This document shows, piece after piece, positions 710 through 5,908 of a DNA stretch of 64,000 nucleotides. Numbering within the stretch: position 1 is the first letter of the stretch; every line of letters starts with the position of its first letter. Where the stretch lies: positions 124,001 to 188,000 of the forward strand of contig JAJCZA010000023.1 in assembly GCA_029262635.1 (NCBI GenBank), given 5' to 3'. Position numbers and translations under genes: made by a program. Below the pieces are notes generated by a model that worked only from the letters and a program-made list of their open reading frames with translations, was not told the DNA's origin and searched no databases. Origin of the DNA: Vampirovibrionales bacterium (GTDB lineage Bacteria > Cyanobacteriota > Vampirovibrionia > Vampirovibrionales > Vampirovibrionaceae).

Positions 710-2227
710 TTATTTTACCCTAAATCTGGTCAGAGGACGGGCTAAAAGTGGGAAAATTCCGAGGCTCCAAAGGAAAGGAACTCCCGTGAGGAGGATATAA
801 TTCAGGATATGAATATTTTGAAGGGGTGTAAAGGCCAATAGCTGGAAGTAGCTAAGCAATAGGCCAAATCGTCGAGGCCAGGCGTTCTCTTCCAGTAAAA
901 ACAGGAGTGGAAAAAACATGGCGATGTACCAGGCATGGAACTTGGAGCTGGCGAAGGCAATCATAACAACCAGTACGAATGCCATGGGCAGAATGAGATT
1001 TTTATAAGCCCGGTAGGTTTGCTCAAAAGAGGAATGTCGCCAGAAGGTAATACCCTGCCAGAAAAAGAACAAGGCAAAACTTCCCCAAAGGAGAGGTTTG
1101 AAAAAATTCCGCAGGGCTTCAATAGAAAAAATTTCGGGGAAACCATTGGCACCCGGTAGCATTGGGGCGGTGTAATAGACCAGTCGACTGAGCATGGAAT
1201 TAAGTGAGTGTTGGGTCATACTAGCATTTTTCGCCATGGCCTCAAACGGCAGGTTTTGCCAATCTTGAAGATATGGCCAGCCCAGTGCCAGAATAATAAT
1301 ACTAGCCAGTGGGATACCAATGACTAGTGCTCGCCAATCTCTCCAGCGAGTGAGAGCCATCAGAAAGAAGGGAGCCGTTAAAATTGAGGCGTATTTAGTA
1401 AACACCGAAACGGTTAATAGCGGGAAAATCGTCCATCGCCACACAGGAAATTGAACCATCGCAATAGCCAAGAGAAGGCCAAAGGAAACCCAGAGGTCAT
1501 TATGGCCGTTACCAACGATTTGTAAGAGCATTAGCGGGTTCCACCCATAGAGAAGCGCACCGAATTCAGGCCGAGCCAAATTTAACCGATGACCCGTCAG
1601 GTAAATAAGATAGGTGATGGCCAAGTGGAGCAGGACGCTATTGAGCTTGAATAGAAAAAAGGCGAATAAAAAGTTCATGCCGCTAAATTCACAAAGCCGA
1701 TGAGCCAACCGGTTAAAAAAGAACCCGTAGGGAGACGGGTTGTCTACCCAATGCTCATGAAACATGGGATTCGCTTGCCAGTTTTCAATATCGCCAAGCG
1801 GGTGAAGGTAAGGGTTAATACCATAAAAGGCTTGTTGCGCCCCTCGGTTAATGTAGCCGTAAATATCCTTGGAATGAAAAGGAATGACGAACAGTAGAAG
1901 GATGCAAAATAGGCTGGTCCAAAAGAAAATTTGCTGAAATGAAGGAGAGGGCAGATTTTTATCCAAACGATTAGGGGCGCTGGCTTGATAATAAACCCAG
2001 GCAATGAGTGCGATCGTGGTAAACAAGAGTCCATGGACCAAAATTTTCCCCGTGGTGGGAGAAAGAGGGTTCAAAATAGGGAAAAAGGATGGATGCCAAG
2101 CCAAATCGATTTGGCGAGAGATTTCGGCATCAACGAAACCGGTACTGATGAAAAGGTGGGCGGTTGGAATCAGAAGCAGGGCGTATAGTCCGGCTGTGAT
2201 AAAGCCCCAAACTCTTAAACCTTGCAA
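710..2227 (-). CDS. Polytopic GT-C fold glycosyltransferase (MptB/DUF2029-like)
   Basis: This 505-residue protein is almost entirely hydrophobic, with roughly 11-13 predicted membrane helices. It resembles polyprenol-phosphate-mannose-dependent mannosyltransferases of the MptA/MptB and GT87 kind. Supporting signs are the acidic residue in the first outer loop (FHSKDIYGYINRG), the loop segment HWVDNPSPYGFFF, and NGHNDLWVSFGL inside a helix-rich core. Such enzymes add hexoses to lipid or glycan acceptors on the outer face of the cytoplasmic membrane. The start is TTG at 2225-2227, overlapping the end of the ATP-grasp gene by 13 bases; an AAGGA nine bases upstream supports it and implies translational coupling. 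Sugar donor and acceptor are unknown. A link to the neighbouring graspetide genes is suggested only by the overlap. Confidence 0.75.
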   Translation of the reverse strand: MQGLRVWGFITAGLYALLLIPTAHLFISTGFVDAEISRQIDLAWHPSFFPILNPLSPTTGKILVHGLLFTTIALIAWVYYQASAPNRLDKNLPSPSFQQIFFWTSLFCILLLFVIPFHSKDIYGYINRGAQQAFYGINPYLHPLGDIENWQANPMFHEHWVDNPSPYGFFFNRLAHRLCEFSGMNFLFAFFLFKLNSVLLHLAITYLIYLTGHRLNLARPEFGALLYGWNPLMLLQIVGNGHNDLWVSFGLLLAIAMVQFPVWRWTIFPLLTVSVFTKYASILTAPFFLMALTRWRDWRALVIGIPLASIIILALGWPYLQDWQNLPFEAMAKNASMTQHSLNSMLSRLVYYTAPMLPGANGFPEIFSIEALRNFFKPLLWGSFALFFFWQGITFWRHSSFEQTYRAYKNLILPMAFVLVVMIAFASSKFHAWYIAMFFPLLFLLEENAWPRRFGLLLSYFQLLAFTPLQNIHILNYILLTGVPFLWSLGIFPLLARPLTRFRVK

Positions 2228-3153
2228 GATAATCCGTCCTTACCGGCAATCAGGGTTTTAACCAGAGTTTCACTGATCGGATAGCCGGTGATATTTTCAA
2301 AATGAGTGAACATAGGACTGGGATTGCCTTCAATGAACACATATTCGTCTTCCGGCGTTTTGCGGACGTCAATGCCCGAGAAAACGAGTCCGAGGGTTTG
2401 GGCAAGCGTTCTGCAATCTTTTTGAACGGACTCTGGTAAGGATACCGGGACGATAGATGCTTTGGGATCATCTCGAAAATCCAGTGAACGGGCCTGAATC
2501 TCGGCAGGGAAAAGTTCGCCGTTGATGTAATAAATACGGATGTCGACTCCAGGGATCATTTCCTGAAATTGAACCGGCGACTGGGCCAGTTCTTTTAGTC
2601 GTTCGGGTTTTAGATCCTTGGGTTGGAGCCTCTGAGTGTGGGCACCACCCCGAACCGGCTTATAAATGACGTTACCATTCAGTCGTTCATAAAATTCGAT
2701 AACCTGTTGATCGCTATTGGTAACCAGCGTTTCCGGAATTCGGATGCCCGCTTTTTTCATAAGCTTGAGTTGATAACCCTTATATTTGTGTAAATCAATG
2801 GCTTGGGGCGAGTTAACCCAAAGGCAATCATCCAGACATCGGAAAAAACTGCCAAGAGCCGACTCCACTTCTCTGAAGGCCATGTAGGCGATATGCGGGT
2901 CGGAGGCGGGTTCAGGGTGAATCCCAAAGTGATAGCGCCAGTAAACGGATCGAATCTCCGAAAGAGGAGTAGCTCTGGTCTTATCGTTTTCTTGAAAGCT
3001 CCCGCCGGTAGGTGTGTTTGGGTCAAACGTAATTCGACTTTTCGAGGGGAACGTACGTGTGTCAACGTAACAGGCGGCTTCTCCCTGTTGCTTAAGCTTG
3101 TTTAAAATAAATGATGCATGGGCTTCATCGGGCCCGCCTAAAATGAGAATCAT
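2215..3153 (-). CDS. ATP-grasp ligase, graspetide (MvdC/MvdD-type) macrocyclase candidate
   Basis: A 312-residue ATP-grasp enzyme. The N-terminal pre-ATP-grasp part matches graspetide ligases: MILILGGPDEAH, then VDTRTFP, equivalent to the DTxxFP element, and IRSVYWRYHFG, equivalent to the SVWYRR element of MvdC/MvdD. The ATP-grasp core has the lysine strand NVIYKPVRGGAHT (about 159-172), the hinge QEMIPGVDIRIYYINGELF, and the metal-binding strand FIEGNPSPMFTHFE near residue 275. In the family these enzymes phosphorylate Asp/Glu side chains of a ribosomal precursor and join them to Thr/Ser (ester) or Lys (amide). The adjacent upstream gene encodes a protein with two TTxxxxEE motifs, the plesiocin-type substrate pattern. 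No close Shine-Dalgarno precedes the ATG. RimK-like or glutathione-synthetase-like chemistry is the alternative; the neighbour and the DTRTFP element favour a graspetide enzyme. Confidence 0.82.
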   Translation of the reverse strand: MILILGGPDEAHASFILNKLKQQGEAACYVDTRTFPSKSRITFDPNTPTGGSFQENDKTRATPLSEIRSVYWRYHFGIHPEPASDPHIAYMAFREVESALGSFFRCLDDCLWVNSPQAIDLHKYKGYQLKLMKKAGIRIPETLVTNSDQQVIEFYERLNGNVIYKPVRGGAHTQRLQPKDLKPERLKELAQSPVQFQEMIPGVDIRIYYINGELFPAEIQARSLDFRDDPKASIVPVSLPESVQKDCRTLAQTLGLVFSGIDVRKTPEDEYVFIEGNPSPMFTHFENITGYPISETLVKTLIAGKDGLSCKV

Positions 3154-3199
3154 GATGTTTCTTATTATAAACCGAAACCCTTGTGCCGTGCGCTGTATT

Positions 3200-3238
3200 G
3201 CAAAAAGCGCTTCAAAATTATTTTGAAGCGCTTTTTGC
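3200..3238 (-). terminator. Strong hairpin between precursor and ligase genes
   Basis: A perfect 18-bp inverted repeat with a TTA loop lies between the EF-hand protein gene and the ATP-grasp gene, both read on the minus strand. The stem contains the A5/T5 runs, so on the minus strand it ends GCTTTTTGC rather than in a long free U-tract. It is likely an attenuator or partial terminator that makes precursor transcripts more abundant than ligase transcripts, as often seen in RiPP clusters, or an mRNA 3'-end stabiliser. Confidence 0.75.
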
Positions 3239-3271
3239 TTTAATGTTAATAGTTTTTAAGGGTGTCTTGTT

Positions 3272-4240
3272 TTAAATACCGCCACCCTCTTCGCCTAAAG
3301 CCAGCGTGGTAAACTGCATGGGCGGTTCTACTGGAGGAATTTCAGCAGGATCCAGTTCAAAGATATTACCGTCCCGTGCGGCTGTAATCAGTAAATCAAA
3401 GATACTGATTTGATTTGCGATACCGCCTAGCGAGCTATCCGCCACCGCGAGCGGATCAAAGTTGTTCTGCATAAGCTTCATGCCATTCAGGTCGTTTTCA
3501 ACTTGTTGAATACGTGCCGCCAGCTGTGGATCAAAGACAAGGGTTTGAATTTGCTTTAATCGCTCCAGTTCGTCTGCCAGATACATTGCTGCATTATCCA
3601 CTTCGGGTCGGCTTAGTTGACGATTGCGATCAGTATCCCACTGTTGTTGTAGTCTCATCAGATCCAGCGTTCGCTGAGGAGCGTCTCCGCCACCGGGTCC
3701 GCCATCAACAGCGACGTCGGTTAAGCTTATATCGTCCGCATTACCATCATTAGCGGCGGTGGTTGTCACGTCATCCGCAGTCATGGTCTGAGCTTGTCCA
3801 TCGGCATCAGCAATGTTATTAAAATGAGTTCCCATAAATTGAGCCACTTCTAGCTTGCGTTCCATATCACTAATTACAGTACCCAGACCCATCCAAGGGA
3901 AATATTGGTCGAAAGATTTTAATACAGTAACTTGTCTGGAAAGCAAGTTTGAAAACTGACTTAGCTCCTGTTGAGATAGCTGTCCATCACCCTGCGGGTT
4001 AAAAGCAGGGCCTTGATCGGCATAATCAAGGATCGCCAGTACTTCACTGGTTTGGATGTTCCCTTCGCCACCGCCTTCTTCACCGATAGCCTGAGTGGTC
4101 ACACCGCCATCATCGGCGACCGTTTGCGCGGCCATGGGAGCGGTATTATTCTGTGATGTTCCACCACCGTAGCCGTAAAAATAAGAATTGCTTTGCGATT
4201 GGTAAGTATTCGATGCGGATGGATTAAATGATATAAACAT
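3272..4240 (-). CDS. EF-hand protein with two TTxxxxEE graspetide core motifs (candidate precursor)
   Basis: A 322-residue acidic, Gln/Asp-rich protein with no signal peptide. It holds TTQAIGEEGGG at residues 48-58 and TTLALGEEGGGI as its last 12 residues (311-322); both fit the plesiocin-type graspetide core TTxxxxEE. Two EF-hand-like loops are visible: NPQGDGQLSQQE (81-92) and the canonical DTDRNRQLSRPE (202-213). The protein looks internally duplicated: core-like motif, EF-hand, then a long helix. The motif heading the second copy has decayed to TDVAVDGGPGGG (174-185), and a shortened third copy ends in the C-terminal core. The ATG has a good Shine-Dalgarno (AGGAGAGAG). The ATP-grasp gene lies 118 bases downstream on the same strand. 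Most known graspetide precursors are short peptides, so an EF-hand protein as substrate would be unusual. Modification is inferred, not shown. Confidence 0.78.
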   Translation of the reverse strand: MFISFNPSASNTYQSQSNSYFYGYGGGTSQNNTAPMAAQTVADDGGVTTQAIGEEGGGEGNIQTSEVLAILDYADQGPAFNPQGDGQLSQQELSQFSNLLSRQVTVLKSFDQYFPWMGLGTVISDMERKLEVAQFMGTHFNNIADADGQAQTMTADDVTTTAANDGNADDISLTDVAVDGGPGGGDAPQRTLDLMRLQQQWDTDRNRQLSRPEVDNAAMYLADELERLKQIQTLVFDPQLAARIQQVENDLNGMKLMQNNFDPLAVADSSLGGIANQISIFDLLITAARDGNIFELDPAEIPPVEPPMQFTTLALGEEGGGI

Positions 4241-4444
4241 ATTGAACTCTCTCCTGTATGAGCTTCACAGGTAATAAGATTTTTGCAGGTTAGGGGGCAA
4301 AAATAAAACACAAAAGATGTATATTATTAAAAAAACATTAAAATAAGAATGATTGCTTATTTCAAAAGGAGTTGTTACAAAAGGACATAATATATCAAAG
4401 GGATATTGTGTTTATGAGGGTTGGAAACAAAGAGGGGAATGCTC

Positions 4445-5908
4445 TTATGAGTCCAGTTGCTTTTGAACTTGTTCTCCCAGGATTTGGATCGCCTGCTCGA
4501 TTTCCGGCGACCATGGGTTGCCACAATTCAGACGAATGCAATGTTTAAAATCCGGTTTAGCCGAACAAATAACGCCGGGTGTGATACTGATATTCTGAGC
4601 GAGGGTGTCCACATAAAGGCTTTGAGAGTCAACCGACCTTGGGAATTGAACCCAGAGGAGGTAGCCGCCCTGAGGTCGGGTCATTCGGGTGGACTCCGGA
4701 AAATAGTGGTGCCCTGCTTGAGTCATTTGGGTTATTTGTAACGAAAAAGCGTGCCTTAGGGTTGCTAGGTGTCGTTCATAAGCACCCGTTCTTAAAAATT
4801 CGGCAACCACTTGTTGAGAGAGCGTTGGCGTGGCCAATGACATCATAAACTTTAATCGCTTGACTCGATCTCGATATTTTCCGGGGACAATCCAGCCGAT
4901 TCGCAGGCCCGGCGCTAGTGACTTCGAGAAGGAGGAGCAAAGAAGAATATTACTGTTAGCCTCCTTATGCTCAAGATCAAATGTTTTGACAGGCTTAGGA
5001 CGATGGCTTCCAAAATAGAGATCCCCATAAATATCATTCTCAATAAGTGCCACATCATGTTTTTTGAGAAGATCAGCCAGGCGTTTCTTCTGTTGGTCAG
5101 GCATCAACGAGCCTAAAGGGTTGTTAAAGTTGGGGACGAACAGGCAAGCGCGGATGGGGTGGGTTTTCATGGCCTGCGCCAGTGCGTCAAGGTCTACGCC
5201 TGTGCGAGGGTGGGTCGGAATTTCTAGCGCCATCATGCCAAGGCTCTCAATAGCGGGTAAAAAGCCAAGGTAAGTGGGCGACTCAATGGCGATAATATCA
5301 CCGGGTTGGGCAACAGCTCTCAAACAGATATTAATAGCCTCGATAGCCCCATTGGTCATGACAATCTCTTCAGCAGAAAACTGGCACCCATAGCGAACCG
5401 AACGTTTGGCGATTTCCCGGCGAATTTCATAGTTGCCCGGCGGGTAGTCGTAGGTTAGGTTCGTCCCTCCCGAGTGACGGAGTTGGGATGAAAACAAGCG
5501 TTGCAACTGAGTAGTCGGATAGAGCGCCATTCCAGGTGTTGCCGCACCGAGTGGAACAACCTTCTGAGGGTTGCGTTTTTCGGAAACGACACTTTCAAGC
5601 AAGGTCGTAATAATGTCGTCCATCTGGATGTAAGACGCTTCACAGGGAGGTGTTGATGATTCCGGTTCGACAAAACGATTTTGAGGATTGTATAAAACGT
5701 AATAGCCGGATTGGGGACGGGATTCGATGAAATAATTATTTTCCAGCCACTGATAAGCTTTCAGTACCGAAGAAACACTCACGCCCTGTTGTTTACTGAG
5801 CTTTCTCACCGAGGGCAAGCGTTCGCCCGGCTTTAGGGTTCCGTCCTTCATCAGTTGAATCAGACTATTGGCAATGGTTTGGTATAAAAATTCCTTTTGA
5901 GAACGCAT
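4445..5908 (-). CDS. MocR/PdxR-family regulator (GntR HTH fused to PLP aminotransferase)
   Basis: A GntR-type winged helix occupies the first 75 residues (GERLPSVRKLSKQQGVSVSS), followed by a fold-type I aminotransferase domain. PLP-site motifs are visible: the aminotransferase substrate-binding region VPNFNNPLGS, the Asp strand ALIENDIYGDLYF, and the Schiff-base lysine in CSSFSKSLAPGLRIG. Proteins of this build use the PLP domain as an effector sensor to control vitamin B6, GABA or taurine genes. The ATG at 5908 is preferred because AAAAGGAG lies upstream; an in-frame TTG at 5938 would add ten residues but lacks a ribosome site. It is divergent from the membrane-protein gene at 6068, and the 130-150 bp between them probably hold both promoters, so that gene is a possible target. 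Confidence 0.88.
   Translation of the reverse strand: MRSQKEFLYQTIANSLIQLMKDGTLKPGERLPSVRKLSKQQGVSVSSVLKAYQWLENNYFIESRPQSGYYVLYNPQNRFVEPESSTPPCEASYIQMDDIITTLLESVVSEKRNPQKVVPLGAATPGMALYPTTQLQRLFSSQLRHSGGTNLTYDYPPGNYEIRREIAKRSVRYGCQFSAEEIVMTNGAIEAINICLRAVAQPGDIIAIESPTYLGFLPAIESLGMMALEIPTHPRTGVDLDALAQAMKTHPIRACLFVPNFNNPLGSLMPDQQKKRLADLLKKHDVALIENDIYGDLYFGSHRPKPVKTFDLEHKEANSNILLCSSFSKSLAPGLRIGWIVPGKYRDRVKRLKFMMSLATPTLSQQVVAEFLRTGAYERHLATLRHAFSLQITQMTQAGHHYFPESTRMTRPQGGYLLWVQFPRSVDSQSLYVDTLAQNISITPGVICSAKPDFKHCIRLNCGNPWSPEIEQAIQILGEQVQKQLDS

Follow-up and report, generated by a model that had tools for sequence, protein, structure and literature searches.

Two adjacent minus-strand genes of the window, by which we mean the whole 64,000-nucleotide stretch of DNA analysed here, most likely encode a plesiocin-type (TTxxxxEE) graspetide synthetase and its precursor, the latter the size of a whole protein (Table 1). 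The enzyme and the core are of a known kind, and long precursors as well as engineered protein cyclisation are already on record; the unusual part is the substrate, in which a predicted disordered tail carrying leader and core is followed by a folded EF-hand-like domain and then by a C-terminal tail that bears another core. Graspetides have been described as small peptides excised from short precursors.

Table 1. Coordinates of the predicted graspetide pair, its substrate elements and a neighbouring gene within the window.
Feature	Residues	Position	Strand	Basis
Membrane-anchored TPR-type protein gene		2-670	minus	Homologues adjoin ligase in relatives
Plesiocin-type graspetide synthetase (ATP-grasp ligase), predicted, 312 aa		2215-3153	minus	TIGR04187; PsnB sequence/fold match; tree
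18-bp hairpin, terminator-like		3200-3238	.	Substrate-ligase gap; z = -7.9
Predicted graspetide precursor/substrate, 322-aa EF-hand-like protein		3272-4240	minus	ORF; cores; AF2 model; core-bearing homologues
Core 2, TTLALGEEGGG	311-321	3278-3310	minus	Motif; C-terminal tail
Folded helical domain, predicted	60-300	3341-4063	minus	AF2 model; homologues above Pfam EF-hand cut-offs
EF-hand-like loop DTDRNRQLSRPE	202-213	3602-3637	minus	Within folded domain
EF-hand-like loop NPQGDGQLSQQE	81-92	3965-4000	minus	Within folded domain
Core 1, TTQAIGEEGGG	48-58	4067-4099	minus	Motif; AF2: predicted disordered N-terminal tail
Leader-like motif MFISFNPS	1-8	4217-4240	minus	[FY][IVL]x[FY] common to related precursors

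The initial annotation had placed an MvdC/MvdD-type ATP-grasp ligase beside the substrate gene, citing the DTRTFP and SVYWRYH elements that are indeed present in the ORF, and had proposed comparison with graspetide family models; this assignment is borne out. TIGR04187 was the best NCBIfam match (3.2e-47), followed by MvdC (1.1e-41) and MvdD (3.2e-29), with rimK_fam far lower (1.1e-14); the TIGR04187 score of 161 bits lies below the curated cut-off of 350, so the ligase is a divergent member. PsnB (7drm) was the top match in a PDB sequence search (8.4e-37), with microviridin ligases next, and was also the best PDB match to the predicted fold (5.0e-28; AF2 model, mean pLDDT 91.9), where RimK reached only 7e-16. 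Residues invariant across the family include E275 and N277, an E-x-N pair close to the C-terminus. In a phylogenetic tree, the window ligase, PsnB and all tested ligases with TTxAxGEE neighbours formed a 100/100 group that left two microviridin ligases outside, the exact placement of PsnB being unsure because it is a long branch. Judged by sequence and modelled structure, the ligase is a plesiocin-type graspetide synthetase. We give almost no weight to the notion that the enzyme, as a RimK-like or different ligase, extends the neighbouring protein by further residues at its acidic C-terminus: a RimK domain does score above its Pfam cut-off (30.2 bits), and RimK modifies a ribosomal protein, but RimK-like function was rejected with RimK far behind both in NCBIfam and by fold, and the internal cores are conserved too, not the C-terminal ones only.

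The substrate gene has a good ribosome-binding sequence ahead of it and encodes an acidic protein (45 D/E vs 14 K/R) with no Cys. Both TTxxxxEE cores reported earlier, at residues 48-58 and at the C-terminus, were confirmed by ORF translation, residues 311-322 reading TTLALGEEGGGI, and by a genome-wide pattern count. In the 2.99-Mb genome, the DNA pattern of the core, ACNACNNNNGCNNTNGGNGARGARGG, has exactly two matches, both in the substrate gene (control, 0), and a looser TTxxxxEEG pattern adds two further matches, no more than its own control; genome search found one such substrate only. Nine of 11 residues are identical between the two cores, six of them encoded by different synonymous codons, which indicates that the motif is kept as protein and not as DNA.

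Core and ligase also travel together across genomes. Among 146 genomes of the class (Vampirovibrionia), 36 carry a ligase relative and 13 the exact core pattern, all 13 lying within the ligase-positive set (P = 1.8e-9). The initial annotation had suggested looking for TTxxxxEE proteins near similar ligases, and this search was positive: a scan of 80 loci in named genomes of Vampirovibrio and Gastranaerophilales, photosynthetic cyanobacteria and Planctomycetota found the TTxAxGEEGG core adjoining related ligases in 63, with 204 strict motifs against a single one in the reversed control. A chance motif was rejected on the exact-pattern count against its control together with this co-occurrence. 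Position 3 is hypervariable in a set of 233 cores (2.93 bits; L, M, Q, K, Y, F, E, R), and A4, G6 and G10 are nearly fixed, the search pattern having set or limited positions 1, 2 and 6-9.

The AF2 model of the substrate gives pLDDT below 50 for residues 1-58, mostly 75-97 for residues of about 60-300, and about 62 for the C-terminal tail, so that leader and core 1 are predicted to lie on one loose tail and core 2 on the other. The earlier view of cores at the two ends of a folded protein is in keeping with this model; its further claim, that they do not follow a short leader, does not stand, since residues 1-8 match a leader motif shared among related precursors and core 1 does follow a leader on the disordered tail. 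Of 22 Vampirovibrionia precursors, 20 have the motif [FY][IVL]x[FY] ahead of their first core (2000 shuffles: mean 1.05, maximum 6), a count that is descriptive and no independent proof because the motif was read from these same proteins, several of them related. In the window's order it sits at the extreme N-terminus (MFISFNPS in the window, and MAYVSFQQ, MGLFVNF, MNSYLNFNP and MGTFISF). The plesiocin leader is LFIEDL; elsewhere in the class, certain members of other families carry LFIRDL (L017), LFISEL (L020) or LFIKEL (L049), and the cyanobacterial and Planctomycetota precursors have an HPF-type leader. A PDB sequence search with the L020 precursor, aimed at the plesiocin precursor, returned nothing useful.

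The first proposal of an EF-hand protein as substrate finds support at the level of an EF-hand-like fold family. Its own EF-hand_6 match is sub-threshold (E = 0.04), whereas the homologues L003 and L034 exceed Pfam EF-hand cut-offs; a fold search gave no significant matches, EF-hand proteins making up most of the top ones, and a PDB sequence search with the protein returned nothing useful. Core-bearing EF-hand-like proteins occur in genome G005, beside a ligase, and in ligase-positive G014, there on a different contig from the ligase. The initial annotation had named homologues without TTxxxxEE as refuting evidence, and such proteins do exist, in the window's own genome (L003), in G005 (L041) and in ligase-free G010 (L036). 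None of them adjoins a ligase and one comes from a ligase-free genome, so they are no argument against the system; rather, comparison of these sequences suggests that an existing scaffold acquired cores and leader in ligase-bearing genomes. Calcium gating of the putative ester rings is possible. As a separate observation, the first EF-hand-like precursor of G005 (L073:4113-4720) has an in-frame TAG that splits it after 120 residues, and homology runs on past this codon.

The conservation of this domain bears on whether the protein is an ordinary multi-core precursor, with the EF-hand-like part a long spacer from which proteases free small bicyclic peptides, and no function of the large protein itself. 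Photosynthetic cyanobacterial relatives do have short precursors (about 100 aa) with several cores, and plesiocin itself is a multi-repeat peptide according to the main text of PMC13097080. However, the EF-hand-like domain is retained across genera, is predicted to fold and also exists alone and core-free, and no C39 peptidase was found in the genome (assembly 95.9% complete); we therefore consider the spacer reading unlikely.

For the preferred pair with a protein-sized precursor, we propose that the ligase would bind the N-terminal MFISF leader motif and phosphorylate Glu side chains in both TTxAxGEE cores; within each core, these Glu would then form esters with the two Thr. By analogy to plesiocin, this would give either flexible tail of the EF-hand-like domain a small hairpin with one ring inside another, with about four water losses in total over both cores. 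The modified protein would probably stay untrimmed and release no small peptide, its hairpins acting as protease-inhibitor-like loops on a putatively calcium-stabilised, plausibly extracellular scaffold. The ligase could in principle form bonds between cores, from the Thr of one to the Glu of the other, which would lock both protein ends into a cyclised protein; in engineered constructs, ThfB, a graspetide synthetase, can cyclise whole proteins inserted into them (PMC12291112). Each core is complete alone, however, and single chains of relatives hold between 1 and 14 complete cores of similar kind; this speaks for rings inside the individual cores and leaves the cross-core arrangement highly improbable.

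The 118-base gap between the two genes contains a terminator-like hairpin that would lower expression of the ligase relative to the substrate; an excess of substrate over enzyme is usual for such pairs. On its other side, the ligase stop overlaps the listed TTG start of an ORF at 710-2227 by 13 bases (2215-2227). This overlap had led to the suggestion that the encoded glycosyltransferase belongs to the system. The overlap itself is real, but membership was rejected: in the relatives examined, glycosyltransferase homologues lie on contigs other than that of the ligase, and they also occur in ligase-free genomes. In G005 and G002, homologues of the TPR-type protein do adjoin the ligase (L004, L005; 35-36% identity), in a different orientation. 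No exporter or protease gene is linked to the substrate/ligase pair.

Calcium-binding-type scaffolds may extend beyond the EF-hand. A second family of the class (L156, 2633-7633) encodes two divergent graspetide-type ligases and two core-bearing proteins, the larger of which (3565-5217) combines RTX/DUF3060 repeats with TTxAxGEE-like cores, and further core-bearing relatives are Gly-rich, Pro-rich or built of helices alternating with up to 14 cores. More tentatively, and at somewhat less than even confidence, natural graspetide enzymes may modify loops on folded calcium-binding-type carriers (EF-hand; RTX-like in L156), the end product then being no small peptide but a secreted protein, stabilised by calcium, with several ester-stapled loops that inhibit proteases. 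Planctomycetota precursors are large, with a twin-arginine-like stretch after the leader (by eye); at six of their loci (L106, L138, L143, L145, L147, L152) an RHPFDG-type leader and this stretch accompany several cores, and some of these precursors have long helical tails without a Pfam match. Separately, the ligases of L007, L011 and L158 form a subclade with KPVRGWAHT replacing KPVRGGAHT, and the ligase neighbour at L007:2462-2842 lacks TTxAxGEE but has repeats of KAPSDNESGNLPPKPPG-like units, which may be another type of core.

Those graspetides that had been characterised by 2022 are protease inhibitors (PMC8939145), and the main text of PMC13097080 has plesiocin potency rising with repeat number. 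By this analogy, the product here would probably inhibit proteases from a putatively calcium-stabilised scaffold, and the hypervariable core position 3 would fit the specificity (P1-like) residue of an inhibitory loop. Type I secretion HlyD proteins are present in the genome; together with the lack of a C39 peptidase and the acidic, Cys-free composition of the substrate, they would be compatible with export of an intact, putatively calcium-stabilised protein.

Relative to plesiocin (PsnA2/PsnB), the pair shares the ligase fold and subfamily, the repeated TTxxxxEE-type core and, in some class relatives (L017, L020, L049), a similar type of leader; it differs in that the substrate is a 322-residue EF-hand-like protein with the leader at its start and a core on either side of the fold. 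In cyanobacteria, TTxAxGEEGG precursors next to TIGR04187-like ligases have the same core and a closely related ligase (about 40% identity), but are short, with an (M/R)HPF-type leader and a GG motif. Long precursors with repeated motifs, comparable in that respect, are known from corallotide group 15 and from groups 34, 35 and 41 in the main text of PMC13097080, which makes no mention of an EF-hand or other calcium-binding fold in its precursors. ThfB cyclisation (PMC12291112) and leader repositioning in engineered graspetide systems (PMC13003496) likewise show whole proteins and altered leader/core arrangements to be tolerated; theirs are engineered, whereas the arrangement here is natural. 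A search for graspetide and EF-hand together found no paper in the literature collection covered, and the main texts consulted make no mention of a natural precursor on an EF-hand-like or RTX-like fold.

The host is a relative of Vampirovibrio, within the non-photosynthetic sister group of cyanobacteria, that apparently uses a stapling enzyme, of a kind known for producing small peptides that inhibit proteases, on the loose ends of a large calcium-binding-type protein; its relatives appear to put this motif on several further kinds of large protein. If the substrate is modified as predicted, this would be a natural case of loop stapling on whole proteins via one short N-terminal tag, which has so far been engineered. 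If true, stapling on several unrelated scaffolds would offer ready enzyme-substrate pairs for protein stapling, as well as a testable idea of how Vampirovibrio relatives and gut Gastranaerophilales may cope with host or prey proteases.
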